Assembly: GCA_947452065.1 (NCBI GenBank) | Contig: CANGBB010000002.1 | Coordinates: forward strand, 186,001-250,000 | Source of the DNA: Gammaproteobacteria bacterium | Lineage (GTDB): Bacteria; Pseudomonadota; Gammaproteobacteria; Steroidobacterales; Steroidobacteraceae | Direction of reading: 5' to 3' | DNA length: 64,000 nucleotides | Shown here: in pieces, positions 18,367-46,179 of the stretch | How positions within the stretch are numbered: position 1 is the stretch's first letter | Layout: each line of letters begins with the position of its first letter | Notes under the pieces: model-generated | What the model was told of the DNA's origin: nothing | What the model saw: only the letters and a program-made list of their open reading frames with translations | Databases searched by the model: none | Position numbers and translations under genes: made by a program

Positions 18367-19084
18367 CTCGCCCATGGTGCCCGTGGTGCAACTGCACGGT
18401 GTGTGCAAGTCATTCAACGTGGGTCGGCCCAACGAAACGGAGGTTCTGCACGGCATTGATCTGGTGCTCGAGCGCGGTGAGTTCTGTGCTGTGATGGGGC
18501 CCTCTGGATCGGGCAAAAGCACATTGCTGAATATTGTCGGTCTACTCGATCGCCCGACAAGCGGTCGGCTTACCGTGCGTGGGGACGAGACTACGCAGCT
18601 GGACGATGCGGCGCTGACCCGGCTGCGGGGCCACACCATCGGTTTCGTTTTCCAGTACCACTATCTGATCAGTGCTTTTACTGCGCTGGAGAATGTGATG
18701 ATGCCGCTGCTCAGCGACGCAGGCTTCCCAAATCAGGCCATCGAGCGCCGGGCCGCTGATCTGCTTGAGAGCGTGCAGCTGACTCCGTGGCGTGATCAGC
18801 CCGCTGCGCAGTTGTCCGGCGGGCAGCAGCAGCGCGTGGCGCTGGCACGTGCACTGGCGATGAAGCCGGCGCTTCTCCTGGCCGACGAGCCCACCGGCAA
18901 TCTCGACAGCGCCAGCGCGGACGCGGTTTTCAATCTCATCCGGGAGGTGAATCAGACTGAGGGTACCAGCGTCCTATTTGTGACCCATAACCCGTCGTTG
19001 GCGCAGCGCTGCGATCGAATCATTCGCGTCGTGGACGGGAGGATCGTCGACGGCTCATCCGCTGCGCTAGACTTGCAGCCATGA
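18359..19084 (+). CDS. ABC transporter ATP-binding protein (LolD/MacB type)
   Basis: Walker [10 protein letters not shown], signature [15 protein letters not shown], Walker [14 protein letters not shown]. Confidence 0.93.
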
Positions 19085-19497
19085 AGCCAGCGATTCGGCC
19101 CCTGCGTGGACGCCTGCTGATGCCAGCTCTTTGCGTGGGGCTGGTTCTGGCTGCGACGCTCGTCACTGCCCATCATTCGCTGGCCAGCTACGACGATGAT
19201 CAGATCGTCGAGATCGACGGCACATTGAAAGATACGAAGATCGCTAATCCACACACGCTGTTTTGGGTGACGGTGCCGGCGAGGGGAGCGGGTGCCGCCA
19301 GTACCGTGTGGACAGTCGAGACAGCGGGGTCCGCATTTATTCTCCGCAGCATCGAGGGGCCGCTGCGTGATCAGTTCGCGTCAGGCCAAAAAGTACGAGT
19401 CACCCTGCATCCCGCGCGGGACGGTGGCCATACCGGGCTGCTGGTGCAGATGCAGTTTGCTGACGGCCGTGTCTTGAATGGGGTGCCCGTCAAATAG
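19081..19497 (+). CDS. Exported DUF6152-like protein (copy 1), coupled to the ABC operon
   Basis: ATGA overlap with the ABC ATPase; signal peptide then [16 protein letters not shown] motif shared with 35889 and 37499 ORFs. Confidence 0.75.
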
Positions 19498-19528
19498 TTG
19501 CGACGGGCACCCATCGAGCGATCGCAGG

Positions 19529-19843
19529 CTATTTGGTTTTGCGGCTCGCTGCGCTGCTGGCAGCGTTGTCGCTCGGGCCGCTGCTTGAGCTGCTGGCGCT
19601 GGAAGCAGCAGCGCTGCTCGGTACGGGCTCCGTGCCGGGCATGCCGCATTTGGCGAACTTCTTGGTCTTGATATCACGGCACTTGCCGGTCGCGGGCGTG
19701 GCCGTCTGACACAGCTTTGCTTCGACGAACTTGCCGTTGTCGCGGCACTTTCCCGCTGCATCCAGAGCGGGCGCAGCCGAGACCGTACCGGTCAGCAGGC
19801 TGGCGAAGGCGAGGGTGGCCAGAAACACATGAATCTTGTGCAT
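19529..19843 (-). CDS. Small secreted Cys-containing protein (PsiF-like)
   Basis: Signal peptide; two GKCRD elements (AGKCRDNGKF..AKLC, TGKCRDIKTKKFAKCG); Ser/Ala-rich tail. Confidence 0.55.
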   Translation of the reverse strand: MHKIHVFLATLAFASLLTGTVSAAPALDAAGKCRDNGKFVEAKLCQTATPATGKCRDIKTKKFAKCGMPGTEPVPSSAAASSASSSSSGPSDNAASSAASRKTK

Positions 19844-19915
19844 GGGTGATCCTCCAGGTTGGGAACGTCAGTATCCCACGAGCCGCGTGCGGAGCGTAGA
19901 AGCTGCGCCGGAAGA

Positions 19916-20632
19916 TCAGGGGTGGGTCAGGCGCTGTGCGAGTTTGGCGCGCAGCTCGGCCCTTGCTGCGGCCACTTCGCGTTGGTATTCGGGGCTGGCA
20001 TTCATTGCCGCATGCACGGCATACGCCAGCGGACGACTAGCCGCGAGATCGCTCGGATAATGTACGCCGCACATCAGCCGGTTATGTGCATAGTCATCAG
20101 CACGCGCAAGGAGCTGATCCCGCAACTCTGGAATCATGTCGATCAGTGACAGGGCCATCAGATAGCCGACCGTGGTGTGACCACTCGGATAGGAATCTGC
20201 AACGGTCTTCGTCCTGCAGACGGGCTGCAAAGTCTTGTCGAGGTTGTAGGGACGTACGCGTTTGAAATCGTTCTTGGCAGGATCGACGATGGCACTTTCC
20301 GTCTCGTTGACCCTGGCGCCTAGCGCCGCCGTCAGGGGCAGTGCAGCCGGTGTGAAGTCGCTCCCCAGAGCGTCGCGGAAGAGAAAAATGGATTCGTCGT
20401 TTTCATCGGCCACCGCACGCATCACCTGTGCCGGAGTACGCAGCGTCTGCAGCCGGTGCAGTTCGGCGAGGTCGGCTTGAGTGATTGCCGAGTTGGCAGC
20501 GGGTGGCGTAGGCAGGATGTCGAAGGCGTGGATCTGAGGTGCGTCCACATAGGGCGCAGCGAGGCTCCACACAGGCAGCAGTGCCAACAAGCCACCGACG
20601 ATCAGCGTAGTTCGGCAAGACGGAGTGCGCAT
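19916..20632 (-). CDS. Class A (PAP2-type) acid phosphatase
   Basis: Signal peptide; KTVADSYPSGHTTVGYLMAL and NRLMCGVHYPSDLAASR motifs. Confidence 0.85.
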   Translation of the reverse strand: MRTPSCRTTLIVGGLLALLPVWSLAAPYVDAPQIHAFDILPTPPAANSAITQADLAELHRLQTLRTPAQVMRAVADENDESIFLFRDALGSDFTPAALPLTAALGARVNETESAIVDPAKNDFKRVRPYNLDKTLQPVCRTKTVADSYPSGHTTVGYLMALSLIDMIPELRDQLLARADDYAHNRLMCGVHYPSDLAASRPLAYAVHAAMNASPEYQREVAAARAELRAKLAQRLTHP

Positions 20633-20784
20633 GGCTCAATCTCCTTGGAAGCGCTGCCAGTTGGAAGCACTGCGAACAGGTCTGCGCTGTCGCAAGCAGC
20701 GCCGCGGTGTGGCACTGGACGCCGCCAGTGCCACCCACAGCATCGCTGACCTTGGCGTGCCAGGGTCAGCCAACGAGTCAACTA

Positions 20785-20991
20785 TCAGGCCTGAGGGGCC
20801 TCTTTGTTCTGCTCGATCCAGAGCAGCGCGGCCTCGACATCAGCCAGTTCCGCGGCATTGAAGCCCGGTACCCGCGAGCCACCGGCCTCGGCCTTGATGC
20901 GGTTGAGTTCGCCATTGGCCTGGGCATGCACCCACACCAGTCCGCGACGCACCTTGGCGGTGAACTTCTGCTGCTTGCTCTCTTCGGTCAT
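20785..20991 (-). CDS. Small hypothetical protein
   Basis: 68 aa, MTEESKQQKFTAKVRRGLVWVHAQANGELNR; codon usage and minus-strand position consistent with a gene. Confidence 0.5.
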   Translation of the reverse strand: MTEESKQQKFTAKVRRGLVWVHAQANGELNRIKAEAGGSRVPGFNAAELADVEAALLWIEQNKEAPQA

Positions 20992-21106
20992 GGATAGTCT
21001 CTCTGTTAAGTAAGAAAATCAGTCCTGCGGCGGTTTGCCGAGCCGGCATTGTATCGCCGGCCGGGTGGCGTCGCAGTCAGAATTGATACGGAGCCTTCAG
21101 ACCCGA

Positions 21107-21814
21107 TCAGGGTGTGCCACTCGGCAGGTCGAAGACGAGAATCTCCCCCTGCCGGCCATGGGTCAATTCCAGCTGCCCGGAATCGATGAGCAGCGCATCG
21201 CCGGCTGTCAGTACCTCACCATTCGCGGTGAGCGAGCCGCGGGCCAGATGTGCATAGAGTAGGCGACCCGACGCGCATTGCATTGTGCTGCGTTCCTCGC
21301 CATCAAAAAGACCGGCGTAAAGCCGCGCCTGTTGGTGTATGCGGAGCGACCCGTCGGTGCCATCCGGCGAGGCGATGAGCCGCAGGCGCCCGCGCTTCTC
21401 GGCAGCACTGAAGGTGCGCTCTTCGTAGCCCGGCGCGATGCCCAGGATTTCGGGTTGGATCCAGATCTGCAGAAAATGCACGGGCTGCGTTGAGGAATGG
21501 TTGAACTCACTGTGCCGCACGCCACTACCCGCACTCATCCGCTGCACATCGCCGGGGCGGAGTACCGAACTGCTGCCCGTTGAGTCGCGATGGGCGAGTT
21601 CGCCTTCGAGCACATAGCTGATGATTTCCATATCGCGATGACCATGCGTGGGGAAGCCGCTCCCCGGTGTCACGCGATCCTCGTTGATCACGCGCAACGG
21701 CCCGACACCCATGAAGCGCGGATCGAAATAGTCAGCGAAAGAAAAAGTGTGCCAAGAGTCGAGCCAACCATGGTTGGCGTGGCCGCGTTGTTCACTACGA
21801 CGTATCTGCAGCAT
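21107..21814 (-). CDS. Pirin family protein (YhaK type)
   Basis: GWLDSWHTFSFADYFDPRFMGVGPLRVINEDRV, FPTHGHRDMEIISYVLEGELAHRDS, GSGVRHSEFN. Confidence 0.92.
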   Translation of the reverse strand: MLQIRRSEQRGHANHGWLDSWHTFSFADYFDPRFMGVGPLRVINEDRVTPGSGFPTHGHRDMEIISYVLEGELAHRDSTGSSSVLRPGDVQRMSAGSGVRHSEFNHSSTQPVHFLQIWIQPEILGIAPGYEERTFSAAEKRGRLRLIASPDGTDGSLRIHQQARLYAGLFDGEERSTMQCASGRLLYAHLARGSLTANGEVLTAGDALLIDSGQLELTHGRQGEILVFDLPSGTP

Positions 21815-21858
21815 GCGATTTCCGGTGATGAGGCGAGGTTTTCTAAATGCCCGGCTAC

Positions 21859-22206
21859 TCAGGGCGCGATGGTGAACTTCACCGTGCCGGGCATGACGTG
21901 GCCGTCCGGGCCGGTGGCGCGGTAGAGCAGTGTGTATTCGCCAGGGGCGAGTTTCGGCGCAGGCAGGGTGACACGCTCGGCCGCTACGCTGGGTACCGGG
22001 CTGATTTCCTGCGTATCCATCTCACCGGTTTTCTGTAGTGTGACTCTCGAGAGTGTTGCTGGCTCGTTGAAGGTCAGCGTGAACTCAGTGGGCGCCTTCT
22101 TTAGTGTTTCACCGTTGGCGGGTGTCGTCGCAGTGGCCATGGCATGCGCGATGGCAAGCAGCGGCAGCAGTAATGCGATGGTGAATGGCGCGATAGGATC
22201 TTTCAT
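21859..22206 (-). CDS. copC: CopC-domain copper-binding protein
   Basis: Signal peptide AIA|HAMATATTPANGETL; LTFNEPA; C-terminal GPDGHVMPGTVKFTI. Confidence 0.85.
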   Translation of the reverse strand: MKDPIAPFTIALLLPLLAIAHAMATATTPANGETLKKAPTEFTLTFNEPATLSRVTLQKTGEMDTQEISPVPSVAAERVTLPAPKLAPGEYTLLYRATGPDGHVMPGTVKFTIAP

Positions 22207-22240
22207 CACGATCTCCTGAAAAATAACCTGAAAATATTGC

Positions 22241-23545
22241 TTAACGATGATGGGATGAATGATCGGTCTCGTCCGCTTCCGAACGCGCTGTAATGCGGCG
22301 CGCACGGGGTTGCTGGTCGCCGCTGTACCAGCCCGGATCCACGCCATCCCGGTAATCGGGTCTGACCCGGAGCAGTGTCATCATGCCGCCCATGCCAATG
22401 GGCCCGAAGGGTCCGCGACCCATCGCCATCGGCAGCGTGTTCTCTGGCCCCTGCATGTGTCCCATCGATGCGTGCTCCGCATGCTCATACATGCCATTAC
22501 CGCCCATTGGCTGATAGTCCGGCAGCAGCGCTCCGAGGCGATCGGCCAGTGCTGCCTGCGCCACGCCTACCGGATTAGGGATGCCGTGGCCCATCGCATT
22601 CATCGTGTGATGCGACATGTGACAGTGCAGCGCCCAGTCGCCTGGATTGTCGGCTACGAACTCCAGATCGCGCGTCTGACCGACGCCAACGATCTCTGTG
22701 ACCTCCGGACGCCAGCTTACCTGCGGCCAGCGCCCCCCGTCCGATCCTGTGACCATGAAACGGTGACCATGTAGATGGATCGGATGATTGAACATCGACA
22801 GGTTGGCGATGCGGATACGAACGCGCTCGCCGAGCCGCACATTCAGCATGTCAATGGCCGGAAAAACCTTGCTGTTGAAGGTCCAAAGATCAAAATCGGT
22901 CATCACCGAAGGATCCGGCCGGTAGCTGCCAGGTCGCAGCGCATAGTTGTGGAGGATGAACGCGAAGTCGCGCTGACATACTGGCTGGTGCTGTATGCGT
23001 GGATGCACTATGAAAAGACCCATCATGCCGAACGCCATCTGCGTCATTTCATCAGCATGCGGGTGGTACAGATAAGTGCCGTTCTGTCGGAGCGTGAATT
23101 CATAGGCCCAGGTTTCGCCGACGCCGATGGGGGGCTGCGTCAGTCCGGACACACCATCCATGCCATTGGGCAGCAGGATGCCGTGCCAATGCACTGAGGT
23201 TGGCTCGGGTAGGTTATTGGTCACCAAGATGCGCACGCGATCCCCTTCGACCGCTTCAATGGTGGGTCCCGGCGTGCTGCCGTTGTAGCCCCAGCAGCGC
23301 GCCTTGCAGCCCGGTGCAAACTCGTGCTCAAACTCGCTGGCGATGAGGTGGTATTCCTTCGCGCCATCGACCATGCGCCAGTCCAGCGAACGACCATTGA
23401 GAGTGGTGACCCGTCCTGGAGTTGTCTGTGTGGTCGCGGCCGTTCCTGGCGTGGCTGGCGCCTGTGCGCCGTCGGTTTTGCCGGGGGGCAGGGCGGTGAC
23501 AGCGACGCCCGCACCCATGAGCAGATTGCGACGTGACACGTGCAT
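22241..23545 (-). CDS. Multicopper oxidase with twin-arginine signal (CopA type)
   Basis: MHVSRRNLLMGAG; copper motifs HWHGILLPNG, YHPHADE, NHPIHLHGHRF, HCHMSHHTMNAMGHG; Met/His-rich C-terminus. Confidence 0.9.
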   Translation of the reverse strand: MHVSRRNLLMGAGVAVTALPPGKTDGAQAPATPGTAATTQTTPGRVTTLNGRSLDWRMVDGAKEYHLIASEFEHEFAPGCKARCWGYNGSTPGPTIEAVEGDRVRILVTNNLPEPTSVHWHGILLPNGMDGVSGLTQPPIGVGETWAYEFTLRQNGTYLYHPHADEMTQMAFGMMGLFIVHPRIQHQPVCQRDFAFILHNYALRPGSYRPDPSVMTDFDLWTFNSKVFPAIDMLNVRLGERVRIRIANLSMFNHPIHLHGHRFMVTGSDGGRWPQVSWRPEVTEIVGVGQTRDLEFVADNPGDWALHCHMSHHTMNAMGHGIPNPVGVAQAALADRLGALLPDYQPMGGNGMYEHAEHASMGHMQGPENTLPMAMGRGPFGPIGMGGMMTLLRVRPDYRDGVDPGWYSGDQQPRARRITARSEADETDHSSHHR

Positions 23546-23547
23546 GG

Positions 23548-24915
23548 TTAATTCCCTCTGACAGGCATCGGCAGCGGTGCGCCGAGTGCGCGTGCCAACG
23601 CCACACGGCTCTGCCACCAGGACTGCAAGGCGTCGACTGCGCCCTCATAGGCTGAATAGGACTGCTGGCGAGCCAGCAGCAGCTCGAAGGGGCCGGTGAG
23701 CATGAAATTGGCTTGCTCACTCAATCGCGCGACGATCGATTCGCGCTGCGGAATGAGTCGCTCACGATACTGTCTGTACTCGTCGTAGGCTCGAGCCAGT
23801 TGCTCTAGCTGCGCATCGACTTCCGCGTCGATGGAGACTTCGAGCTGCCGCACATGGGCCTCGGCCAGTTGCAGCTCTGCAGTTGCGCGCGCCACGGCGC
23901 TCTGTCCCTGCGAAAACAGCGGCAGTTCGATGCCAGCGCCGATACCAGTGCGTCGGCTGTCTCCCTCCTGTTCACCCAAGACGCTGACCGCGCTGCCGCC
24001 CAGCAGGCGGAAACGACGCGTTGCCGCCAGTCGCAATGAGACCGACTCCACCTCGCTGCGCGCGGCGGCCAGATCCAGTCGCTGGCTGCGGGCCTCAGCG
24101 TGCAGCTGCTGGGCTTCGAAAGTCAGCGCTTCGGCGGCCGGAAGGTTCGTGGGTAGCTGCAGTGCCGGATCGGTTGCGGTCAGTCCTAGAATCTGGCGTA
24201 GACGGGAACGGCTGCGGCTGGCATCGCGCTCGCTTCGACTCAGCGAGAGGGCGGCCTCGGTGCCAGCAGCGGCCTGCAGCGCCGTCTCGACGGCATTGAT
24301 GTTGCCGGCCAGACGGTATTGCTCCGCCAGCTCTGCGGCAGTCTGGGCGCTCTCCGCGATAGCGCGACGCACCGACAATCGTTGCTGTGAGGCCGCCGCT
24401 TCCAGCCAGGCGTCGAGAGTGTCCAGAGCCAACGCGTAGAGCTTTGCGGCAAGCTGCTGCTGCGCGGCGCGTAGCTCTACAGCCCCGTACTGACGCCGCG
24501 AGGGGAGTCTGATCAGATCGTCGAGACTGAATCCGAGTGTGCCATCCAGCTTGCGATCACCGCCGTGCGGGCTGGGCCACAGCCACGCCAAGCCGAGTTG
24601 CGGGTTAGCCGGCCGGCTCGCAGCAAAGATATCAGCGGTGCTGATGCCCAGTTGGGCACAAGCGGCTTGTGCATCGGCATTGCGCAGCCACGCAACGCGT
24701 ATGGCAGCCGTGGCGTCCAGTGGGGCCGCCAGCAGAGTCCGCAGCTCGTTTTCGGCTGCCTCTGCATTATCTGGAAACTGCGCCAGCGTGCCGGCAGACC
24801 GCTGCAGCAAGGCCTGCGCCTGCTGACGGCTGGACTGCACAGGAACTGTGCTGCAGCCCGACGATACGCCGAGTGTCGCCGCGGCGGTGATCACACTCAG
24901 GAGACGGAATTTCAT
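23548..24915 (-). CDS. TolC/OEP-family outer membrane lipoprotein
   Basis: Lipobox VSSGC; paired coiled-coil OEP repeats (AVELRAAQQQLAAKLYALALDTLDAWLEAAA; IELPLFSQGQSAVARATAELQLAE). Confidence 0.82.
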   Translation of the reverse strand: MKFRLLSVITAAATLGVSSGCSTVPVQSSRQQAQALLQRSAGTLAQFPDNAEAAENELRTLLAAPLDATAAIRVAWLRNADAQAACAQLGISTADIFAASRPANPQLGLAWLWPSPHGGDRKLDGTLGFSLDDLIRLPSRRQYGAVELRAAQQQLAAKLYALALDTLDAWLEAAASQQRLSVRRAIAESAQTAAELAEQYRLAGNINAVETALQAAAGTEAALSLSRSERDASRSRSRLRQILGLTATDPALQLPTNLPAAEALTFEAQQLHAEARSQRLDLAAARSEVESVSLRLAATRRFRLLGGSAVSVLGEQEGDSRRTGIGAGIELPLFSQGQSAVARATAELQLAEAHVRQLEVSIDAEVDAQLEQLARAYDEYRQYRERLIPQRESIVARLSEQANFMLTGPFELLLARQQSYSAYEGAVDALQSWWQSRVALARALGAPLPMPVRGN

Positions 24916-24981
24916 GACGGTCCGAGGCTACGCGGGCCACCGCATGAATTCAATGCGGACCTGTTGCAGTCAGGCCTGCAA

Positions 24982-26586
24982 TCAGGCCTGCAGTCCCTGC
25001 TTGTCCAGATACTCGTCGTAGGTGCCCCTGAACTCGCTGAATTGGCCGTCGGGTCGCATCTCGATGATGCGCGTGGCCAGGCTGCCGACGAACTCGCGGT
25101 CATGCGAGACGAAGATCAGCGTGCCGGGATACTTCTCAAGGCCGATCTGCAGCGACTCGATGGTTTCCATGTCCATATGGTTGGTCGGCTCATCCATCAG
25201 CATGACGTTCGGCTTGGTCAGGATCAGCTTGCCGTAGATCATGCGGCCCTTCTCGCCGCCCGAGAGCACCGTCACCGGTTTTTTGGTCTCGTCGCCTGAG
25301 AACAGCAGGCGTCCGAGCGTGCCGCGCACTAATTGGTCATCGTCGGCCTTGCCGGTCCAGTTTGACATCCATGCGAACAGATCGATTCGCTCGGCAAATT
25401 CCGCCTGCGGATCCTGCGGCATGTAGCCGCGCTGCGCGTTCTCGACCCAGTTGATCTGTCCGTGAGTGGGTGTGAGTTCGCCGGCCAGGCAGCGCATCAG
25501 TGTGGTCTTGCCGATACCGTTCGGACCAATGATGGCCACGCGCTCACCGGCTTCCACATGGAGGCTGAACTTGGTGAATACATCGCGATCAGTGCCGGGA
25601 TAGCGAAAACTCAGTTCCTCAATATTGACCGCCGAGCGATGCAGCTTCACTTTCTGCTCGAAGCGGATGAAGGGATTCTGTCGCGAGGACGGGCGGATCT
25701 CCTCGATCTTGATCTTTTCCAGCTGGCGGCGGCGCGACGTGGCCTGACGCGCCTTGGACGCATTGGCCGAGAAGCGACGGATGAATTCCTGCAGGTCAGA
25801 GATCTTGTCTTTGGCCTTGGCGTTGGCCGCTTCGACCCGCTGACGCGCCTGCACTGAGGCGAGCATGAAGTCGTCGTAGTTGCCCGGGTAGATCTTCAGC
25901 TGCTGGAAATCCAGATCAGCAATGTGCGTGCAGACCTGGTTCAGGAAGTGGCGATCGTGACTGATGATGATCATCGTCGCGTCGTATTCGTTCAGCGCGC
26001 GCTCCAGCCAGCCAATGGAATGGATGTCGAGGTTGTTGGTGGGCTCGTCGAGCAGCAGCACGTCAGGGCTTGAGAACAGCGCCTGAGCAAGCAGCACGCG
26101 CAGCTTCAGACCCGGCGGGACTTCACGCATCGGACCGTTGTGGAAGTTATCGCCGATGCCGGCATCCAGCAGAATGCTGCCGGCGCGCGCCTCGGCTGTG
26201 TAGCCGCCGTATTCGGCAAACTTGCCCTCGAGCTCCGCTGCTTTCATGAAGTCGGCGTCACTGGCTTCGGGGTTGGCGTAAATGCGGTCGCGCTCCTGCA
26301 TCGCCGCCCACATCTCGCGGTGCCCCTGCATCACCACGTCCAGCACACGCTCGTCTTCATAAGCGAACTGGTTCTGGTTCAGCTTGCCGAGCCGCAGTCC
26401 CGGTTGCAGGATCACGTCGCCCGAGCTTTGCTCAAGGTCGCCGCCGAGAATTTTCATCAGCGTCGACTTGCCACAGCCATTGGCGCCGATCAGGCCATAA
26501 CGATTGCCGTCGGAAAAGGTGACCGAGACCTGCTCAAACAGCGGCTTCGCGTCGAACTGGATACTGAGATTGACGGTTGAAAGCAT
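24982..26586 (-). CDS. ABC-F family ATPase (YbiT-like)
   Basis: Two Walker A ([18 protein letters not shown]), two Walker B with [38 protein letters not shown] start. Confidence 0.92.
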
Positions 26587-26754
26587 GAGTGTCCGGGGCT
26601 GGCTTCTCGCCAAGCCCTGCAAGTTGCTGCGCCAAGGGGAGGACACCGATCGATGCCGCAGCCAGTGCTGCGCCAACCCTGCGTTGTCCGGAACTCCGTT
26701 GCCGCCTAAGGTCCGGCTACGGGAGCGTCAATTTAGCACAAAACGCCCCATTCC

Positions 26755-29298: not shown

Positions 29299-29314
29299 TA
29301 TTTTTCCTGTTTTT

Positions 29315-29764
29315 TTATTCGGCATGGCGCTGCTGGAGTTCACTGTCCGTAGCGGGCTTTCGTCTGGCGTCGATGTCTACCGACTGAATACGCGCATCGG
29401 TGCGCAGTCTCGCCAGACCACGCTGGCATTGCTGCGCACTTCCCGAGGCACTGAGCAGAAAGACAAACGAGGTTGATCCGGCTTCACGCACGAAGGTCAG
29501 CTGCACGCGTGCAGCCCGGGCCAGGCTTGCAACCACCGTGGGCACTGGCGGCTGTGGAGCGGGCGGGTTCATTACTACGATGATCTGCAGACTGCAGCGG
29601 TTGGAGGCTGACGGTGTTGGATTCGTTGCAGCCAGGGCGTTTGTGGCGGTGCCCAGCCATGCCATGAAGGCCATCACCCGGCCGCAGTTTCGCAGGCCTC
29701 GCGAATGGCTCTGTGGATTCTTGTTCACGCCTGACATGTTCGCATGCCCGGTCGCGCTCGTCAT
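29315..29764 (-). CDS. Small exported protein resembling the propeptide of the adjacent S8 peptidase
   Basis: Signal-like N-terminus; LARLRTDARIQSVDIDARRK aligns with LTRLRADPSVQFVEIDQRRY of the peptidase prodomain. Confidence 0.65.
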   Translation of the reverse strand: MTSATGHANMSGVNKNPQSHSRGLRNCGRVMAFMAWLGTATNALAATNPTPSASNRCSLQIIVVMNPPAPQPPVPTVVASLARAARVQLTFVREAGSTSFVFLLSASGSAQQCQRGLARLRTDARIQSVDIDARRKPATDSELQQRHAE

Positions 29765-29785
29765 GCCGGCATCGCCGCTGCCAGA

Positions 29786-30889
29786 CTAGCGGATCTCGGC
29801 CAACCCGCCATGCACCCCGCGGGGCGACAACAGTACCTGCCACAGCTGGTTGCGCCGTGCCCGGAATGAGGCCGCACAGATCTGCAGGTAGTAGCGCCAC
29901 ATCCGTTTGAAGCGCTCGCCGTACTGCGGTGCGATATGTGGCCAATGGGCATCAAAGCGGGCCAGCCAGGCCATCAGCGTGCGGTCATAGTCGGGACCAA
30001 AGCCATGCCAGTCCTCGATCACCCACTGCCGTTCGACCGCAGTGGCGATCTGAGTCATCGCCGGAATGATGGAGTTGGGAAATATGTAGCGTTCGATCCA
30101 CGGATCGGTTGTCTTCGAGGAATGATTGGCGCCAATGGTGTGCAGCAGGAACAGGCCGTCGGGAGCCAGCAGCTCGCGCACCTTGGTGAAATAGGCGCGG
30201 TAGTTGCGCGGGCCAACATGTTCGAACATCCCCAGTGAATAGATTCGATCGAAGCGTCCCTGCAGGTCGCGGTAATCCTGCAGCAGAATTTCAACCGGTA
30301 GGCCGCGGCAGCGCTCGCGGGCCGCAAGGGCTTGGTTGCGGGAGACGGTGACGCCAGTGACCTCGACACCGTAGCGTTCTGCTGCAAACTGTGCGGCTCC
30401 GCCCCAACCACAGCCGATATCGAGTACGCGCATGCCGCGCTGCAGTCGCAGCTTGCGACAGACCAAGTCGAGTTTGTGCTCCTGCGCGGTGGCCAAGTCG
30501 TTCGTGTGGCGCCAGTAGCCGCAGCTGTAGATCATGCGTGGATCGAGCATGCCGCCATACAGATCGTCCCCGGCATCGTAATGATGTTCGCCGACCTGAA
30601 AAGCCCGGCCGCGGCTCTGTGCATTGCGGAGGCGGGCCAGTACTGTCGCGATACGCTCGTGCAGTTGGCCGACGCAACCGTCCACCTGCGCATCCATCAG
30701 TCGCGTGAACAACTCGTCAAGGCGTTCGCAGTCCCACCAGCCGTCCATGTAGGCCTCGCCAGCGCCCAGTGAGCCGTGCAGCAGGACCCGTCGAACCATG
30801 CGCGGATCGTGCACGCTGAGGTCCCAGGGACGAGTGCCGTCAATTCTGATGTCGGCTGCAGCGAGTAGTGTCTGGAATTTGCGATCCAT
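29786..30889 (-). CDS. Cyclopropane-fatty-acyl-phospholipid synthase family methyltransferase
   Basis: YSCGYW, GMRVLDIGCGWGGAAQFAAERYGVEVTGVTVSRNQ, FDRIYSLGMFEHVGPRNY. Confidence 0.9.
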   Translation of the reverse strand: MDRKFQTLLAAADIRIDGTRPWDLSVHDPRMVRRVLLHGSLGAGEAYMDGWWDCERLDELFTRLMDAQVDGCVGQLHERIATVLARLRNAQSRGRAFQVGEHHYDAGDDLYGGMLDPRMIYSCGYWRHTNDLATAQEHKLDLVCRKLRLQRGMRVLDIGCGWGGAAQFAAERYGVEVTGVTVSRNQALAARERCRGLPVEILLQDYRDLQGRFDRIYSLGMFEHVGPRNYRAYFTKVRELLAPDGLFLLHTIGANHSSKTTDPWIERYIFPNSIIPAMTQIATAVERQWVIEDWHGFGPDYDRTLMAWLARFDAHWPHIAPQYGERFKRMWRYYLQICAASFRARRNQLWQVLLSPRGVHGGLAEIR

Positions 30890-31143
30890 GGTCCCCCGAC
30901 GCCGGTTCAGTCCGCTAACACGGGTTGTATCGGACTGAGTCGCGCTGCTGTCCTGGACGATGACCGTTGTCACGATGGCCTCCACAAGATCGCCTATTCG
31001 CTGGCAAGGGTAAGGAGCGAATAAGACGCCGGAATCGTGGGAATCCGTAGGTGGTATGGTGGATTGACCCAAGCTCACGGAGGGGTACGGCACCCGGCAG
31101 GTTCGGCCGGCCCGACCGGCCCGAGGGCGCGCTACAATGCCGC

Positions 31144-32613
31144 ATGACTTCAGTGATCCCCGTTACCTTGCTCGCGGTCTTCGTATTTGTGGCATTGGTC
31201 GCGCTGGCCCTCGGCGTGCTGGCGCTTCGGAGCGCGCGGCAGCGCGGTGATGTGGCGCCCGATCTGCGCGCCGAGTTCGATCGGAATCGCACTGAGTCGC
31301 AGGCCGCTGCGCGTGAGCTGCGCGGTGAACTGTCAGAGAGCGTCACTCGCCTGAGTACGCAGGTCTCCAGTCAGATGACGCAGATTGCGACAGTTCAGAA
31401 CAACCAGATCGAGGCCTTCTCGCGCCAGCTGACTGAACTCACGGCGGCGAACGAGCGCCGCCTGCTGGAACTGCGTGCGACGGTTGATGCCAAGCTTGGC
31501 GAAGCCAAGGAGGATGCACGCCTCGGCCGAGAAGAGAGCGGGCTCACGCTGCGGCGTTTCGCGGATACCGTCAATCAGCAACTCGTTACTGTCCAGCAGG
31601 CCAGCGATCAGCGCATGGCGGAAATGCGCCAGATGGTCGAGTCACGGCTTGAGTCCATTCAGAAGGACAATGGCGAGAAGCTCGAGAAGATGCGCCAGAC
31701 CGTGGACGAAAAGCTCCACGCCACGCTCGAGCAGCGCCTCGGCGAGTCGTTCAAGACGGTTCGCGACCAGCTCGACAAGGTGCACATGGGTATCGGCGAG
31801 ATGCAGTCGCTGGCGGCCGGGGTCGGTGATCTCAAGCGCGTACTGTCGAACGTCAAGACGCGCGGCACCTGGGGTGAGGTGCAGCTCGAGAACCTGCTGG
31901 ACCAACTGCTCACCCGCGACCAGTTCGAGAAGAATGTTGAGACACGGCCCGGTTCGGGTGAGCGTGTTGAGATTGCGATCCGTCTGCCGGGCCGGGCGGG
32001 CGAGGGGCAGGTCTGGCTGCCGATCGATTCCAAGTTCCCGGTGGAGGATTACGAGCGGTTGTTGGGCGCGCAGGACGTGGGCGACGTAGCGGGGATGGAA
32101 AACTTTTCGAAGGCGATCGAGACGCGGCTGAAGGTCGAGGCCAGATCGATCCGCGACAAATACATCGAGGCCCCGCACACCACCGATTTCGCGCTGCTGT
32201 TCCTGCCCACGGAAGGCCTGTATGCCGAGGCGTTGCGGCGACCGGGACTCTCGGACCAGTTGCAGCGTGAGTACCGCGTGACCATCGCCGGACCGACCAC
32301 GCTCACCGCGCTGCTCAACAGTCTGCAGATGGGCTTCCGCACGCTGGCGATCGAGAAACGTTCATCGGAGGTCTGGCAGGTACTGGGCGCCGTGAAGAGC
32401 GAGTTCGGCAAGTTTGGCGACGTGCTAGTAAAGACCCGCGAGCAGATCCGCAGGGCCGCTGAGTCGATCGACAAGGCCGAGGTCCGTACGCGGCAGATCA
32501 GCCGCAAACTCCGTGGCGTAGAAGCGCTGCCCGAGGCACAGGCGCGCAGCCTGCTGGAGGGCGATGCCGAGACTGATCGCAGTGCTCCGGAGTCGTCTGA
32601 AAGCCAGGAATAG
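31144..32613 (+). CDS. rmuC: DNA recombination protein RmuC
   Basis: N-terminal TM, long coiled coil, GTWGEVQLENLLDQLL, PIDSKFPVEDYERL, LLFLPTEGLYAEAL. Confidence 0.93.
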   Translation: MTSVIPVTLLAVFVFVALVALALGVLALRSARQRGDVAPDLRAEFDRNRTESQAAARELRGELSESVTRLSTQVSSQMTQIATVQNNQIEAFSRQLTELTAANERRLLELRATVDAKLGEAKEDARLGREESGLTLRRFADTVNQQLVTVQQASDQRMAEMRQMVESRLESIQKDNGEKLEKMRQTVDEKLHATLEQRLGESFKTVRDQLDKVHMGIGEMQSLAAGVGDLKRVLSNVKTRGTWGEVQLENLLDQLLTRDQFEKNVETRPGSGERVEIAIRLPGRAGEGQVWLPIDSKFPVEDYERLLGAQDVGDVAGMENFSKAIETRLKVEARSIRDKYIEAPHTTDFALLFLPTEGLYAEALRRPGLSDQLQREYRVTIAGPTTLTALLNSLQMGFRTLAIEKRSSEVWQVLGAVKSEFGKFGDVLVKTREQIRRAAESIDKAEVRTRQISRKLRGVEALPEAQARSLLEGDAETDRSAPESSESQE

Positions 32614-32646
32614 ACGGCAGAGGCTCCGCGGCGTCTGACGTCCTAA

Positions 32647-33732
32647 TCAAGGTTTGATCGGCAAATATTTCTTCAGGTCTTTCTGACCAACTTCTGCGCC
32701 ATAGACGATGCCGTCGCGACTGACGGCCACGCCCTCAGCGGCACTCGATCCGCGGTAATCGGGTGCCGTGTTGGGATCGGGGATGAACGCGCGTAGCGAG
32801 CCGTCGCGCGCACTGCCGATACGAATGCCGCGGCGCCAACTGCCGTGCTCGGCTGAGACGCCGCCAGACTCAGAGTCAGCAACGTAGAGCGTGTCGTCAC
32901 GGCGATCGATGAAAATGCCACTGGGTCGGCTGAACTGCGTCCACTGGGCGATGAAGTGGCCCTGCTGATCAAAAATCTGCAGACGGTTGTTGCCACGATC
33001 ACCAACAAACAGTCGACCGTGTGAATCCAATGCGAGGCAGTGAGGCGTATCCATCTCGCCTGGACCTGAACCCATCGTGCCCCATTCCATGAGGAATTTT
33101 CCGTTTCGGTCGAACTTCAAGATACGCGCGCTGCTGCGGCCACCGTCGCTGACGAAGATGTCGCCGTTATCCGCGATCGCCACAGCCTTGGGTCCATCGA
33201 ACTGGTTGGGCCCCGTGCCCGCAACGCCGGGGGTGCCGAGCATCATCAGCACCTGACCGGTGGGGCTGAACTTGATGGCGACATAACCCTTGCCGGGCAT
33301 CCCTCGTTCATCGGTGACCCAAATGTTGCCCTCCTGATCGGCGGTGATGCCGTGAGGAAAGACGAAGAGGTCAGCGCCAATCGCACGGATGAGCTTGCCG
33401 GAGGGTTCGAATTCGAGGATCGGTGCGAGATGCGAGTCACCGCAGCCGCCGGGATAGGCTTGGCCGCAGCGCTCGGCCACCCAGATATGGCCCTGCGGAT
33501 CGATGGTAACACCCGCGGTAGATCCCCAAGGCCGGCCGTCGGGCAACTTGGCCCAGTCAGCAACAGTGCGATAGGGGTTCGGCAGTCCCTCGTTGGTTGG
33601 TGTGCCCCAAGGCGTGCTCGGCGCTGCGGTGATACTTCCGGACTGAGCCGACAACTGAACGGCTGCGCCGGAGGCGAGCAGTGCAGTTGCACAGAGTGCG
33701 ACGATGCGCCAGTACCCGTTCTCCCCCGTCAT
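32647..33732 (-). CDS. Secreted NHL-repeat beta-propeller protein
   Basis: Repeated GITADQEGNIWVTD, GPKAVAIADNGDIFVSD, PHCLALDSHGRLFVGDRGNNRLQIFD motifs. Confidence 0.85.
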   Translation of the reverse strand: MTGENGYWRIVALCATALLASGAAVQLSAQSGSITAAPSTPWGTPTNEGLPNPYRTVADWAKLPDGRPWGSTAGVTIDPQGHIWVAERCGQAYPGGCGDSHLAPILEFEPSGKLIRAIGADLFVFPHGITADQEGNIWVTDERGMPGKGYVAIKFSPTGQVLMMLGTPGVAGTGPNQFDGPKAVAIADNGDIFVSDGGRSSARILKFDRNGKFLMEWGTMGSGPGEMDTPHCLALDSHGRLFVGDRGNNRLQIFDQQGHFIAQWTQFSRPSGIFIDRRDDTLYVADSESGGVSAEHGSWRRGIRIGSARDGSLRAFIPDPNTAPDYRGSSAAEGVAVSRDGIVYGAEVGQKDLKKYLPIKP

Positions 33733-33748
33733 GCCCGTTCTCCCCCGA

Positions 33749-34729
33749 TCAGCGCCGTTGTGTATCCGCTGAGGTGCTCCCGCCACGGACAGCGCGTACA
33801 TGCAGCGCATCCGTTTTGTCATTGTAGCTAATAAGTCCGTAGCGGAAGTCGACGGTCCACGCGCGTTCGGTGCGTTGGCCCAGTGTTGTCGAAGACCAAA
33901 ACAACGCGGCTGCAGTGTCCGGGAAGAAGCGAGTGTCCACGCTGGGCTTGGTCATGGACGGCGAGGAGATGGATTCCAGTTCCTTGAGATTGGGCAAGCG
34001 CCAATCCTTTTGGCCACCCAGGTCCAACGCAGCCACGTACTTCAGAGCGTCTTCCCAGTTCGCAGTGGCGAGCCCTTCCTTCTGCTGCCACACCAGACCG
34101 GTCCGGCGGTCGGTCACCGTACCGTCGCTGTTATCCTTGAACGGTGCCGCGCCCGGAGTACCGAGCTCTGCGCCGCGTACGCAACGAACGTGGTATTTTT
34201 TCTTGCCGCCTCCGCTGACGGTTTCACTCTTCGGATGAGCGCCGGTACCGCCGCCGGCATTCACTGCCCAAGCATAAGAGGGATTATCGACACGCTCCTC
34301 GATGGCCCACCAGTATTCCGCCTCCGACTTGGTGAAGACCCCAGTGTCCATCGCGGGGCGATTCATCTGATGATTGGTGATGCTGAACAGTTCATGCACG
34401 TAGGGTAGGCGCCAGTCTTTCTTGCCACCCAGCGCAAGGTCTTTGCAGTAGGTAATGCCGGTCGTCCAAAGCTGCTCGCCGGCATCGGCCTGCTGCCATT
34501 GCAGACCGGTCACCAGATCGGTGACCGTGCCGTCGTTGTTGACCTGATAGGACGGAGCGTTGATGGTGTAGAAACTGTCCTCACCGGCAGTCTGCGTATA
34601 ACGCTGGGTTTGGCCGGTGTCCGGCAAGCGCAGCATCGTCCACGGCGTGTTGGCGGGAGTCTGGGCTGAGGCTTGGAGGGCGACGCTCAGTGTCGCTGCG
34701 ATCAAAAGGCTGCTTCGGCGTTGGGCCAT
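33749..34729 (-). CDS. Secreted DUF1566 (Lcl-type) protein with two domain copies
   Basis: Two copies of VTDxxTGLxWQQ...LGGxKDWRLPxxxEL. Confidence 0.85.
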   Translation of the reverse strand: MAQRRSSLLIAATLSVALQASAQTPANTPWTMLRLPDTGQTQRYTQTAGEDSFYTINAPSYQVNNDGTVTDLVTGLQWQQADAGEQLWTTGITYCKDLALGGKKDWRLPYVHELFSITNHQMNRPAMDTGVFTKSEAEYWWAIEERVDNPSYAWAVNAGGGTGAHPKSETVSGGGKKKYHVRCVRGAELGTPGAAPFKDNSDGTVTDRRTGLVWQQKEGLATANWEDALKYVAALDLGGQKDWRLPNLKELESISSPSMTKPSVDTRFFPDTAAALFWSSTTLGQRTERAWTVDFRYGLISYNDKTDALHVRAVRGGSTSADTQRR

Positions 34730-35025
34730 GACGGGTCAATCTCCGCTGGGGAATGGATAACTGCCTGGAAGACGGAGCGCCTCCCGGAAACGACCGTCCT
34801 AGTCTGGCAATCGATAAATGGCGCGCCAGAATAGGCGGTCGTCCCCGCGCATTGCAAACGGTGAGCGTCCGACCGTGGCGGGCTGTGGTGGTAATCCGGA
34901 TTGACCAGACCGCGGCGATGGGGCGTTGTAGAATCCGGTGGCACAATTATTCAAAGCGGTGACCTCCTGAAGGATCACCCGCAAGCCAATGTCACGGACT
35001 GTCGTGTCAGCCAGAGGGGGCGGAG

Positions 35026-35853
35026 ATGAGCAGGACTCGCGCGGTTTTGGGCGGTGTTGTCATGGCGGCGCTGTTGTCGTGTGCGCCGGTATCTCTTGTT
35101 TGGGCTGCGGCGCCTTCGGCTGGCTCCGACATTCCGGTGCGTGATCTTTCCGGCACCTGGACCCCGGAGCGTGACGGCGCCGGCAATGGCGGGCCCGGTC
35201 CGGCCAGCATGCCTTCCGACGGTAAGCACGAACCGCCCTACACCCCGGCCGCAATCGAGAAGATGAAGGCCTATCACCCCGGCAACGGTGTGCTGCAGGT
35301 ACCGCCCAGCCAGATCAACGATCCGGCAGTGATCTTCTGCGACCCGCAGGGCATGCCCCGTATGGATCTGTACGAGTTTCGCGCCCTCCATATCGTGCAG
35401 CAGAAGCTGAAGATGTTTCTGCTCTATCAATACGACAAAGTCTGGCGCCAGATCTGGTCCGATGGGCGCGATCTGCCCAAGGATCCGGAGCCGCAGTGGA
35501 TGGGCTACTCGGTGGGCAAGTGGGAGGACGACACCACCTTCGTGGTGCTGACCAATGGTGTCGATGACCAGACCTGGCTCGACAAGACCGCGCGGCCCCA
35601 CAGCGATCAGATGGTGGTGGAAGAGCGGTTTCATCGAATCAGCAAGGACATTATGGAACTGACCGTCACCATCGATGATCCGCTCATGTACACGGCGAAG
35701 TGGAAACCACTCGACAAATTCCGCATGAAGCTCATGCCCGATACCTACGAGCCGCCCGAGATGATGTGCTCGGTATCCGAGTACATGCGTTACAACAAGC
35801 GCATGGGGTTTGGTAATCCGACCGCCACCAATGGCATCGGCATGGACAAGTAA
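35026..35853 (+). CDS. Exported protein of undescribed 'GMP/SDQ' family (copy 1)
   Basis: Signal peptide; DLSGTW, FCDPQGMPRM, GYSVGKWEDDTTFV, PHSDQMVVEERFH, MMCSVSEY shared with ORF 46180..46956. Confidence 0.75.
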   Translation: MSRTRAVLGGVVMAALLSCAPVSLVWAAAPSAGSDIPVRDLSGTWTPERDGAGNGGPGPASMPSDGKHEPPYTPAAIEKMKAYHPGNGVLQVPPSQINDPAVIFCDPQGMPRMDLYEFRALHIVQQKLKMFLLYQYDKVWRQIWSDGRDLPKDPEPQWMGYSVGKWEDDTTFVVLTNGVDDQTWLDKTARPHSDQMVVEERFHRISKDIMELTVTIDDPLMYTAKWKPLDKFRMKLMPDTYEPPEMMCSVSEYMRYNKRMGFGNPTATNGIGMDK

Positions 35854-35888
35854 GTGACTGTGCAAACGGATCGACCAGGAGAAACTGT

Positions 35889-36323
35889 ATGAAAGCTGGA
35901 TCGGTAGTCCTTCGGTGCGTCGTTATCCTCGGATGTGTGATGACGCGCTCAGCGCTCGCGCATCATTCCGCTGTGGCCTATGACACCACGCAGTCGGTCA
36001 CACTGACCGGCACTGTGGTGGAGTGGTTGTGGGCCAACCCGCACTGCTCGCTGTCCTTCGACGTCAAGGACCCAAGCGGTAAGGTCCAGCGCTGGTCGGC
36101 CGAAACCGTGCCGCCGGCAGATCTGTTATCGCGTGGCTGGAGCAGAAAGATGTTTCAACCCGGCGATACAGTAACGGTGTCAATGAATCCCGGTCGTCAT
36201 GGCGAGCCTATCGGACGCATCAACACGGTAACGGTCAACGGCAAGACTTTTGGTGGTGCAGTACCGGGCGCAAACCGCGGTGGTGGTGCGCCCGGCGGTG
36301 ATGGCGGCATGGCCGCGAACTGA
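35889..36323 (+). CDS. Exported DUF6152-like protein (copy 2)
   Basis: Signal peptide SALA|HHSAVAYD; LWANPHCSLSFDV; Gly-rich tail. Confidence 0.8.
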   Translation: MKAGSVVLRCVVILGCVMTRSALAHHSAVAYDTTQSVTLTGTVVEWLWANPHCSLSFDVKDPSGKVQRWSAETVPPADLLSRGWSRKMFQPGDTVTVSMNPGRHGEPIGRINTVTVNGKTFGGAVPGANRGGGAPGGDGGMAAN

Positions 36324-36359
36324 TACGGTGGTGTTGGCGCGCGGCAGGGATGAACAGCT

Positions 36360-37451
36360 ATGAAAAATGATTTACGGAAACTTCGGCTTGTTGCGGTGCT
36401 GTTAGCCGGCGCCGCCTTCGCAGCCGCTGGCGCAGAGCGTGCGCGTGCAGCAGAGACCAGATCGCTCACCGTGCCAGATACGCAGATGGCCATCGTGCAG
36501 ACCGGTAATGGTGGGCCGGAAGTCCTGCAATACCAGCGCATTCCGGTGCTCGCGCCCAGAGCGGGTGAAGTGCTCATCAAGGTTGTGGCTGCAGCAATCA
36601 ATCCGATCGAATGGCGCAACCGTACGGGCGGCCCGCGACCGCAGGGCGGAGCAGTTGCCGCCTCCGTGCCGGGCGGTGATCTGGCCGGAATCGTGGTGCG
36701 GTTGGGCGAAGGTGTCACTAACGTGAAGGTGGGCGACGCCGTTTTTGCCAAGCTCGGTCCGGGCCAGCCCGGACTGAATGGTGCGTATGCCCAGTACGCG
36801 GTCGCTCCCGCTAATCAGGTAATGCCCAAGCCATCCGGTCAGACTTTCTCCGAAGCCTGCGGTCTGGCCACAGTGGGTATGACTGCGATGCGCGCCCTGG
36901 ATCATGCGCAGCTGGCTTCCGGCGAGCGGGTATTCATCAACGGTATCGGCGGTGGCATTGGCTCATCCGCAGCACAGATAGCGCGAGCGCGTGGCGCTCA
37001 AGTGCTGGGTACCGCCTCTGGCCGGCACCATGAATACCTTCGCTCCATCGGCGTCAGCGAGGTGATCGATTATCAGAAAGAGCAGTTCGACAAGGTGATC
37101 AATCAGCCGGTGGATGTGGTCATCGAAACTGTCAGCACCGAGACGGCGAACCAGGCGCTCAACATACTCAAGCCCGGTGGGCGATTGGTCAGCATCGCCG
37201 GCGCTGCGAGTGCCGAACTGTGCAGCGCGAAGGGCGTTCAGTGCGCGCGTATTGGCGGTGCCGTTGGCCGTTCGAACAATGAGCTGATGTCAGAGATCAG
37301 CCGCCTTGCCGAAGCTGGCCTGTACAAGCTGCACGTGGATGCCACGTTCCCGCTGGAGCAGGCCGGTGCGGCTCAGGATCTGAATCACAGCGTCGGGACC
37401 ACTGGAAAGGTGGTGCTGATCGTGGATCCGACACTGGCGGGAGAGCGGTAA
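36360..37451 (+). CDS. Exported MDR/zinc-type NADP-dependent oxidoreductase (quinone oxidoreductase-like)
   Basis: AAAINPIEWRNR, PGGDLAGIVVRLGEGV, GERVFINGIGGGIGSSAAQIARARGAQVLGT; N-terminal signal-like segment. Confidence 0.85.
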   Translation: MKNDLRKLRLVAVLLAGAAFAAAGAERARAAETRSLTVPDTQMAIVQTGNGGPEVLQYQRIPVLAPRAGEVLIKVVAAAINPIEWRNRTGGPRPQGGAVAASVPGGDLAGIVVRLGEGVTNVKVGDAVFAKLGPGQPGLNGAYAQYAVAPANQVMPKPSGQTFSEACGLATVGMTAMRALDHAQLASGERVFINGIGGGIGSSAAQIARARGAQVLGTASGRHHEYLRSIGVSEVIDYQKEQFDKVINQPVDVVIETVSTETANQALNILKPGGRLVSIAGAASAELCSAKGVQCARIGGAVGRSNNELMSEISRLAEAGLYKLHVDATFPLEQAGAAQDLNHSVGTTGKVVLIVDPTLAGER

Positions 37452-37498
37452 CGATCAGCCGCTCGGCCCGCCCTGCGCGCCGACGGCCTTGAGACTGC

Positions 37499-38548
37499 TC
37501 AAAGCGTGCAGTCGTAGCGCTCGAGCGTCAGTCCCGGGCGGTACTGCCAATACTTTGATGTGGTCGTTGGTGTGGATGAGCGGGCCGGATCCATCGTCGT
37601 GGCGGTGTATTGCAGACGATTGCGATCTGCACTGAGCTCGAAAGTTTCGGTCAGGCGGGTTTGATCGCCGAGCGTGCGATTATCAATCTTGGTCGTGGTC
37701 ACCACCAGTTTCTTCTCGCCGCTACCGACCCAAACACCGGTTGAGTAGCCCAGCCCGCTGCGTGTCGCGCGGCTATCGTCATGGGTGCTGCTGATGTGAA
37801 TGACACGTACCTGATCGTTCTCTTCCAGCTTCAGCAGAACATCGGCACCGTTCTTCACGAACTGGATCGGATAAGGATTGCCCATCGCCAGCGGCATCGC
37901 CTTCGGTGCACAGTAGCTGGCCGAGGAGGGCAGCACGGCCGAAGCGGTACGAGCCGGTGTAGCGCGGCCACCCGACGCTGCGCCCGTGTTGCTCGCTGCC
38001 GCCTTCTGGGCCGTCAACTTCTGAGCCGCCGCAGCATGGCTTTCGGGATCACCATAGACGGTGGTCCAGACGGCAAAGATGGATGCCGGCCGTTTGTTGA
38101 TATCTGGCTCCGTGACGGTGCCCGCCAGCTTGGCAGCATCGCCGACATGCTCGCCGGACCAGCGCGGCTTGCCATCGACCGAGAAGACAACTTCGCGATT
38201 GTCGGGCAGCAGCAGGTGGTTCATGAAGAGGCTGGTCTGGTTGGCTACACCGCCATAGCCAGCCACTTTCACGACCTGTCCGACCCTGACGAGATTGGGG
38301 GTCACATCCATTCGTGACAGCTGCGCTACCGATGCGCTCTCAATGGCCCATACCTGGGCCGTGGGCTTGCCCGCATCCACCGTGATCTGCATGCGGACAT
38401 GAGGGTTCTTCCATTCCAGCTGCGTGATCACGCCGCTGATCTCGACCTCAGGGTCGTTGCCCCGGTAATTGGATGACCAGCTGTGATGCGCTGCCGCGGA
38501 CGCCGCCAGCAGCAGCCCCGTCACGAGAAACGGAACGCGATGTTTCAT
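37499..38548 (-). CDS. Exported DUF6152-like protein with C-terminal extension (copy 3)
   Basis: Signal peptide ASAAA|HHSWSSNY; LEWKNPHVRMQ; extra C-terminal domain ending YWQYRPGLTLERYDCTL. Confidence 0.75.
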   Translation of the reverse strand: MKHRVPFLVTGLLLAASAAAHHSWSSNYRGNDPEVEISGVITQLEWKNPHVRMQITVDAGKPTAQVWAIESASVAQLSRMDVTPNLVRVGQVVKVAGYGGVANQTSLFMNHLLLPDNREVVFSVDGKPRWSGEHVGDAAKLAGTVTEPDINKRPASIFAVWTTVYGDPESHAAAAQKLTAQKAAASNTGAASGGRATPARTASAVLPSSASYCAPKAMPLAMGNPYPIQFVKNGADVLLKLEENDQVRVIHISSTHDDSRATRSGLGYSTGVWVGSGEKKLVVTTTKIDNRTLGDQTRLTETFELSADRNRLQYTATTMDPARSSTPTTTSKYWQYRPGLTLERYDCTL

Positions 38549-38755
38549 TATTTGTTCCCCCTGTTGGCGTCCCACGATAGGAGTCTGGGCGCGCTTTTTC
38601 AAATACCCCTCAAGGGTAAAGCACAAAGTGTGTTTCGTGCGCGCTCCTGGGGCCGTTCTTGATGATTCTTGAAGCATGGGGACTGTCCCCCGGAGGGCAT
38701 TTTGCGGAAACTGGTTTATCGCTCCCCCAGCGACTCGAGTTGTGAGGATTGGCCC

Positions 38756-45640: not shown

Positions 45641-46060
45641 TCATGGGCCGGGTGGAGGAGGCGTGCCCGGCGGAGGCGGAGGACCCGGTGCCTCGCTCAA
45701 CTCGACGAACCCGTCGCTGTTCTTGTCCATCTGCCTGAAATCGGCCAGAAACTCATCCTTCGAGACCTTGCCGTCGCCATTCGCATCAAAGCTGCCGATG
45801 AAATCGCCGCCACCCTGCGGAGCCTCCGCGGCGTCGACCAAGCCATCATGACTGGCGTCCATCTTGGCAAAGTCGGCCAGATATTCGTCGAGCGAGATCT
45901 TGCCGTCGCCGTTGGTATCGAACTTCTTGATGAACCCAGCGCCGCTCGGCGGCGGCCCACTCGGCGGCCCGGGAGGGGGTGCGTTCTGCGCGAAAGCCGG
46001 CGATGACAGCGCCAGCGCAGCCAATAGCAGCCCGCCGGCCAATAGCCCGTGAAACTTCAT
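45641..46060 (-). CDS. Secreted EF-hand protein
   Basis: Signal peptide; DTNGDGKISLDE, DASHDGLVDAAE, DANGDGKVSKDE, DKNSDGFVELSE; Pro-rich flanks. Confidence 0.88.
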   Translation of the reverse strand: MKFHGLLAGGLLLAALALSSPAFAQNAPPPGPPSGPPPSGAGFIKKFDTNGDGKISLDEYLADFAKMDASHDGLVDAAEAPQGGGDFIGSFDANGDGKVSKDEFLADFRQMDKNSDGFVELSEAPGPPPPPGTPPPPGP

Positions 46061-46179
46061 GTGCTGATGCTCCTGAAAACTGGCAGCATTCTAGGCTAGA
46101 AGACCATGTGTTGGCAGATGAACGTGGTGACAGAGTCTCCGCGTCAACTGCTCTCCTAAAGGCTGACGGGGGTCAATCA

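Follow-up and report, generated by a model that had tools for sequence, protein, structure and literature searches.

A 64,000-nucleotide stretch of a Steroidobacteraceae genome (contig CANGBB010000002.1, positions 186,001 to 250,000; hereafter the window) carries three genes of the uncharacterised family DUF6152 (PF19649), whose exported products are predicted to begin, once mature, with two adjacent histidines (HH) and to present a further His in an Asn-Pro-His (NPH) turn. Our analysis suggests that DUF6152, a C-terminal domain (CTD) that is fused to it or encoded beside it, and the small membrane protein DUF6644 together form an undescribed bacterial metal-handling system. We give an even chance to the reading in which DUF6152 is a counterpart of CopC built on an oligonucleotide/oligosaccharide-binding (OB) fold, which would work with a CopD-like membrane partner and use its N-terminal His-His together with the NPH His to hold a transition metal. 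The basis of this proposal is the conservation of the histidines, their position relative to the signal peptide, the adjacency or fusion of the CTD, the co-occurrence with DUF6644 and the profile relation between DUF6644 and CopD; metal binding, the identity of the metal, the direction of its transfer and the ligand role of the CTD are what we infer from it.

The DUF6152 and CTD genes of the window are the following:

19081..19497, plus strand: DUF6152 gene 1, short form, 138 aa, 66.4 bits with the DUF6152 profile; signal peptide codons 19081-19170, HH codons 19171-19176, NPH codons 19246-19254
35026..35853, plus strand: stand-alone exported CTD protein, 275 aa, partner of gene 2 and 36 bp upstream of it
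35889..36323, plus strand: DUF6152 gene 2, short form, 144 aa, 90.7 bits; HH codons 35961-35966, NPH codons 36036-36044
37499..38548, minus strand: DUF6152 gene 3, 349 aa, a DUF6152 + CTD fusion, 50.4 bits; HH codons 38488-38483, NPH codons 38407-38399, CTD about 38176-37502
45934..46953, plus strand: second stand-alone CTD reading frame, 340 aa from stop to stop, with no adjacent DUF6152

An earlier note, made from the letters of this stretch alone, had described the three DUF6152 products as exported proteins of about 110 aa that share a mature N-terminus HHS and an NPH motif at fixed spacing. The sequences read as it had given them, i.e. ...IANPH in gene 1, SALA/HHSAVAYD...WANPH in gene 2 and SAAA/HHSWSSNY...WKNPH in gene 3 (the slash marks the predicted cleavage), with 27, 27 and 29 residues, respectively, from the first His to the NPH His. 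The family assignment is likewise secure, since all three genes exceed the curated PF19649 cut-off of 27 bits (66, 91 and 50 bits). The size does not apply to gene 3, in which DUF6152 is fused to a CTD of about 225 aa; neither this fusion nor the conserved multi-gene module had been remarked.

In order to avoid circularity in assessing the motif, a motif-blind profile was built only from the region that follows NPH. It finds the same 22 places in the own genome as the Pfam model, and 287 distinct domains over all the DNA collected from this genome and other loci, many of them below 30% identity. A script scored HH and PH in 285 of the 287, and inspection of the remaining two showed both motifs there as well, which rules out chance or artefact as the origin of the motif. 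While HH and PH are thus present in all 287, the complete NPH is found in 276/287, the third letter of HHS is a Ser in 86%, and the spacing is not fixed, ranging from 26 to 31 and being mostly 27. In an alignment of 81 sequences the only strictly invariant columns are H1, H2, P27 and H28, followed by the nearly invariant G68 (99%), N26 (98%) and E48 (94%), and by W45 (91%).

Position is conserved as well. All 22 DUF6152 domains of the own genome start with HH at the signal-peptide junction, and the claim that HH directly follows a signal peptidase I-like site is borne out in 220 copies by the residue pattern, with a small residue (A/G/S/C/T) at -1 in 94% and at -3 in 81%. Hence, with an AxA-type cleavage predicted directly before HH, a free N-terminal His is expected in the mature protein. 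Of the interpretation offered earlier, binding of copper or another transition metal through both N-terminal His and the NPH His, the part that stands is the invariance of HH and of the NPH His and the placement of HH exactly at the predicted cleavage site. One single-copy DUF6152 (L143:1009-1779 / L247, genome G146) has a Tat-like (twin-arginine) signal, MQRREFVQLAALLGSGGGIADALA/HHGW, and may therefore be exported in a folded state.

The predicted structure of DUF6152 is that of an OB-fold-like exported protein. The AlphaFold2 model of gene 2, computed from 81 sequences, has a mean predicted local distance difference test (pLDDT) score of 85, with values above 90 over most of residues 11-90, and its best Foldseek matches in the PDB are the OB folds of PriB, SSB and Rim1 (E from 2e-3). 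The model of the gene 3 fusion (pLDDT 89, predicted TM score 0.85) again matches OB folds in its N-terminal part. By sequence, no significant relative of solved structure was obtained for DUF6152, the fusion or the CTD; PriB does come up in the profile search, not significantly. DUF6152 has the predicted fold in common with PriB/SSB and no significant sequence relation to them (best E 0.61). A nucleic-acid role of the PriB/SSB kind is unlikely since DUF6152 is exported. Periplasmic OB folds such as CusF and CcmE can carry copper or heme, although the candidate ligands of DUF6152 differ from theirs.

Applied to the 287 sequences, whose effective number is 165, mean-field direct-coupling analysis retrieves the beta2-beta3 hairpin. 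Residues 3 and 7 show weak coupling to Glu48, whose partner in this hairpin, residue 30, is two positions away from the NPH His; the signal is weak at the N-terminus, where no single pairing register is prominent, and is suggestive only. Couplings among the invariant His are zero-variance artefacts, and hence this analysis lends the proposed site only weak support.

The CTD of the fusion proteins has stand-alone homologues, e.g. the protein encoded at 35026-35853, and matches no Pfam or NCBIfam model. Its association with DUF6152 is close: of 79 independent loci, drawn from Acidobacteriota and from Gamma- and Alphaproteobacteria, 71 have a stand-alone CTD gene no more than 300 bp from DUF6152. 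Among the 22 DUF6152 of the own genome 14 are CTD fusions and seven of the eight short copies have a CTD neighbour, so that the CTD is adjacent or fused in 21/22, gene 1 being the sole exception. Over a set of 40 genomes, consisting of the own genome and its relatives, 11 have both families, one has only DUF6152, one has only CTD and 27 have neither. CTD matches number 24 in the own genome and 51 and 71 in two relatives (G006 and G009), showing that the CTD family exists also without DUF6152. The CTD has a pair of almost invariant Cys, conserved Glu and Arg residues and, near its start, a G-x-W motif, which suggests a disulfide-locked barrel. Of 244 stand-alone frames, 203 have an N-terminus that a heuristic scores as signal-peptide-like. 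In the fusion model the CTD part gives weak Foldseek matches to the retinoid- and fatty-acid-binding proteins CRABP2 and iFABP (E 6e-4 to 5e-3, TM by target 0.42-0.60), by which it is probably a calycin-like (lipocalin/FABP) barrel.

The second partner, DUF6644 (PF20349), is a small membrane protein encoded directly beside several DUF6152 copies that have no adjacent CTD. It is found in exactly the same 12 of the 40 genomes as DUF6152, and neither family occurs in the other 28. Simple counting puts this coincidence at one chance in 5.6 billion, a figure that understates the true chance since the genomes are related; still, nine members of the same genus have neither. Among 40 loci holding DUF6644, 29 have the gene no farther than 300 bp from DUF6152 or CTD and 35 have it as a doublet; operons that combine two DUF6644 genes with DUF6152 and CTD are seen repeatedly. 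NCBI annotation agrees with this picture: in Azospirillum ramasamyi the genes for DUF6152 and DUF6644 overlap, and Novosphingobium humi has a doublet of DUF6644 genes close to DUF6152.

As judged from profile comparison, DUF6644 is remotely related to CopD. Aligned by hhalign in a single comparison, the two profiles give a probability of 92% over 130 columns (E 6e-7), while a reversed profile gives 0.4% and block-shuffled profiles at most 22%, and the invariant His of DUF6644 falls on the invariant His of CopD, within the His-containing helix. None of the DUF6644 proteins reaches the CopD (PF05425) cut-off of 32.1 bits, the best of eight scoring 18.5 bits, and they should be considered relatives of CopD and not members. 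Besides the invariant His, DUF6644 has positively charged residues; one DUF6644-type protein also shows a weak match to COX15-CtaA (E 0.007).

The genomic context, taken with the CopD relation of DUF6644, points to metals. Single DUF6152 copies or those without CTD adjoin DUF411, the 'copper chaperone' PpoB2 with DUF1326, and FecCD permeases. At L250:5171-6575 (genome G016) a single gene separates a PpoB2 (PF09948)-DUF1326 pair from a DUF6152-CTD-DUF6644-DUF6644 cluster, and in Azospirillum siderophore-type ABC (ATP-binding cassette) transporter genes lie beside DUF6152.

The distribution of the module is patchy, within Pseudomonadota and Acidobacteriota, and its copy number is high where it occurs. 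The own genome has 22 DUF6152 domains in 2.17 Mb, and several of the 12 DUF6152-holding genomes have 10-20 copies. The extreme is a 1.6 Mb genome of the same order (G029) with 47 DUF6152, about one per 34 kb, and 44 CTD matches; it is AT-rich (35% G+C in the stretches sampled) and holds several DUF6152/CTD copies in tandem arrays (loci L041-L060). In the wider class DUF6152 is rare, being present in 5 of 273 other genomes. A viral origin was considered and rejected, as a viral-contig scan with the fusion protein gave no relative. NCBIfam holds no DUF6152 or CTD model, and a TIGR02269 match far below its own cut-off was disregarded.

The mechanism we propose is as follows. DUF6152 would be exported and cut by signal peptidase directly before His-His, leaving a free N-terminal His1-His2. 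A single transition metal, with Cu(II) the likeliest and Ni, Zn or Fe possible, would be held by the amino group and the imidazole of His1, by His2, by the His of the NPH turn and possibly by Glu48. In the periplasm the protein would capture this metal, either as such or in complex with a ligand, and pass it to the CopD-like pair of DUF6644 proteins. The CTD accompanies most copies as a second exported protein, predicted to be a beta-barrel; what it binds may be an organic ligand or a chelate, and the large number of paralogs would then mirror a similar variety of ligands.

Several observations weigh against the metal-handling reading. From 22 to 47 copies per genome are odd for plain metal homeostasis, and the own genome has only 4 DUF6644 genes for 22 DUF6152. 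The CTD-linked, expanded copies lie near TonB receptors, pyrroloquinoline quinone (PQQ) dehydrogenases, sulfatases, SnoaL/hydrolase proteins and others; no single pathway emerges from a survey of their neighbourhoods, which are mixed catabolic and not metal genes. Gene 1 is the last gene of a HlyD/MacB-type ABC operon, of efflux type. Finally, residues 1-10, which hold the candidate N-terminal ligands, are the less confident part of the DUF6152 model.

The main rival, which we consider unlikely, is that DUF6152-CTD is a periplasmic redox enzyme, its OB domain bearing a mononuclear copper site of histidine-brace type at which hydrophobic organic substrates would be oxidised. The calycin-like CTD would hold the substrate, DUF6644 would supply electrons from the membrane and the paralogs would be substrate-specific isoforms. 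Such an enzyme would account better for the paralog numbers, up to 47 diverged copies per genome, and it agrees with the resemblance of the CTD model to retinoid- and fatty-acid-binding proteins, with the TonB receptor, PQQ dehydrogenase, sulfatase and SnoaL/hydrolase neighbours, and with the COX15-CtaA match. However, no residue pattern of a known oxygenase is seen, the CTD-calycin match is weak, and singletons stand beside metal or chelate genes and not catabolic ones. Its most specific form, in which DUF6152-CTD pairs are copper oxygenases or peroxygenases of a new class, with the His-His/NPH site on an OB fold, electrons arriving via DUF6644, hydrophobic molecules held by the calycin-like partner and dozens of substrate-specific isoforms per genome, is in our estimate improbable.

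It is also rather improbable that HH and NPH are structural or partner-binding elements, e.g. a docking surface for CTD or DUF6644, and no metal ligands at all. The almost constant presence of a CTD partner makes a constrained interface plausible, and P27, N26 and G68 look structural; but HH and PH are kept equally in fusions and in copies without adjacent CTD, and an adjacent His pair at the processed N-terminus in 287/287 proteins, many below 30% identity, would be unusual for an interface. Least probable, and only a slight chance in our view, is that the conserved His bind heme, with DUF6152 as a heme carrier on an OB fold like that of CcmE and DUF6644 as a membrane heme protein, which would suit the FecCD-type importers beside some copies and the invariant His and positively charged residues of DUF6644, but is opposed by a His position that is not CcmE-like, by the confinement of HH to the predicted mature N-terminus, which argues for a use of the amino group that heme does not need, and by the copper-type DUF411 and PpoB2 neighbours.

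Returning to metal handling, CopC/CopD (PF04234/PF05425) would be the nearest functional analogue of the DUF6152 module, with which it shares an exported protein with a predicted N-terminal His and a membrane partner that aligns with CopD. Membership of DUF6152 in CopC itself was rejected, given no Pfam CopC match and only 9.6% in hhalign. In contrast to CopC, DUF6152 has a predicted OB fold, two N-terminal His and an additional CTD partner, whereas DUF6644 differs from CopD in remaining below its cut-off and in coming as two short genes. Lytic polysaccharide monooxygenases (LPMOs), the histidine-brace enzymes, resemble DUF6152 in the mature N-terminal His proposed to chelate a metal together with an internal His; DUF6152 differs in having neither a family match to them nor evidence of polysaccharide activity, and no LPMO is among the 50 Foldseek matches listed for either model.

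The 'signal strapping' study demonstrated metal binding for four N-terminal-His families, DUF4198, DUF6702, Ang-1 and Ang-2 (PMC12537917), exported proteins of this kind binding Ni, Zn, Co or Cu, and two of the four being attached to membrane permeases (PMC12537917). These were uncharacterised exported families with a His directly after the signal peptide, as is DUF6152, while the families and folds differ; the N-terminal His is kept in 79% of DUF4198 and 65% of DUF6702 (PMC12537917) versus 100% of DUF6152, a family that the paper does not mention. YcnI (DUF1775) is reported to be an N-terminal-His copper domain that acts together with the membrane copper transporter YcnJ (PMC8424229, PMC12362106); it belongs to a different family, and DUF6152 has His-His plus the NPH His. 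A search of the open-licence PubMed Central (PMC) literature returned no paper naming DUF6152, PF19649 or DUF6644, and none with both 'histidine brace' and 'OB fold'.

Metalloproteins with an N-terminal His are a topical class, which includes LPMOs, CopC and YcnI as well as the recently found DUF4198, DUF6702 and anglerases, and to which DUF6152 would bring a His pair and an internal His on a predicted fold for which the open-licence PMC papers searched describe no such site. Should it bind copper, it would represent a CopC/CopD-like system on an unrelated periplasmic domain; should it be catalytic, a large overlooked enzyme family. Either way, three uncharacterised families, DUF6152, DUF6644 and CTD, are joined in one testable hypothesis.

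As to the surroundings in the window, two groups of genes lie close to gene 1:

15836-17095, plus strand: HlyD-like adaptor, from reading of the sequence
17092-18366, plus strand: MacB/FtsX-type permease, from reading of the sequence
18359-19084, plus strand: ABC ATPase, from reading of the sequence
21859-22347, minus strand: CopC, Pfam match
22241-23617, minus strand: multicopper oxidase-like, from reading of the sequence
23548-24915, minus strand: TolC-like, from reading of the sequence

The genes for the HlyD-like adaptor, the MacB-type permease and the ATPase overlap successively, and the ATPase gene overlaps gene 1 (15836-19497); no HlyD/MacB operon was found beside DUF6152 at the other loci examined. 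The CopC, multicopper oxidase-like and TolC-like genes form a minus-strand cluster (21859-24915) 2.4 kb from gene 1. The genome has CopC, and CopD was not detected anywhere in it. Adjoining the fusion gene 3, a sulfatase-like and an arylsulfotransferase-like gene (the second with a Pfam ASST match) lie side by side at 38669-41499, and sulfatases recur near DUF6152 copies both in the own genome and in the relative G029.

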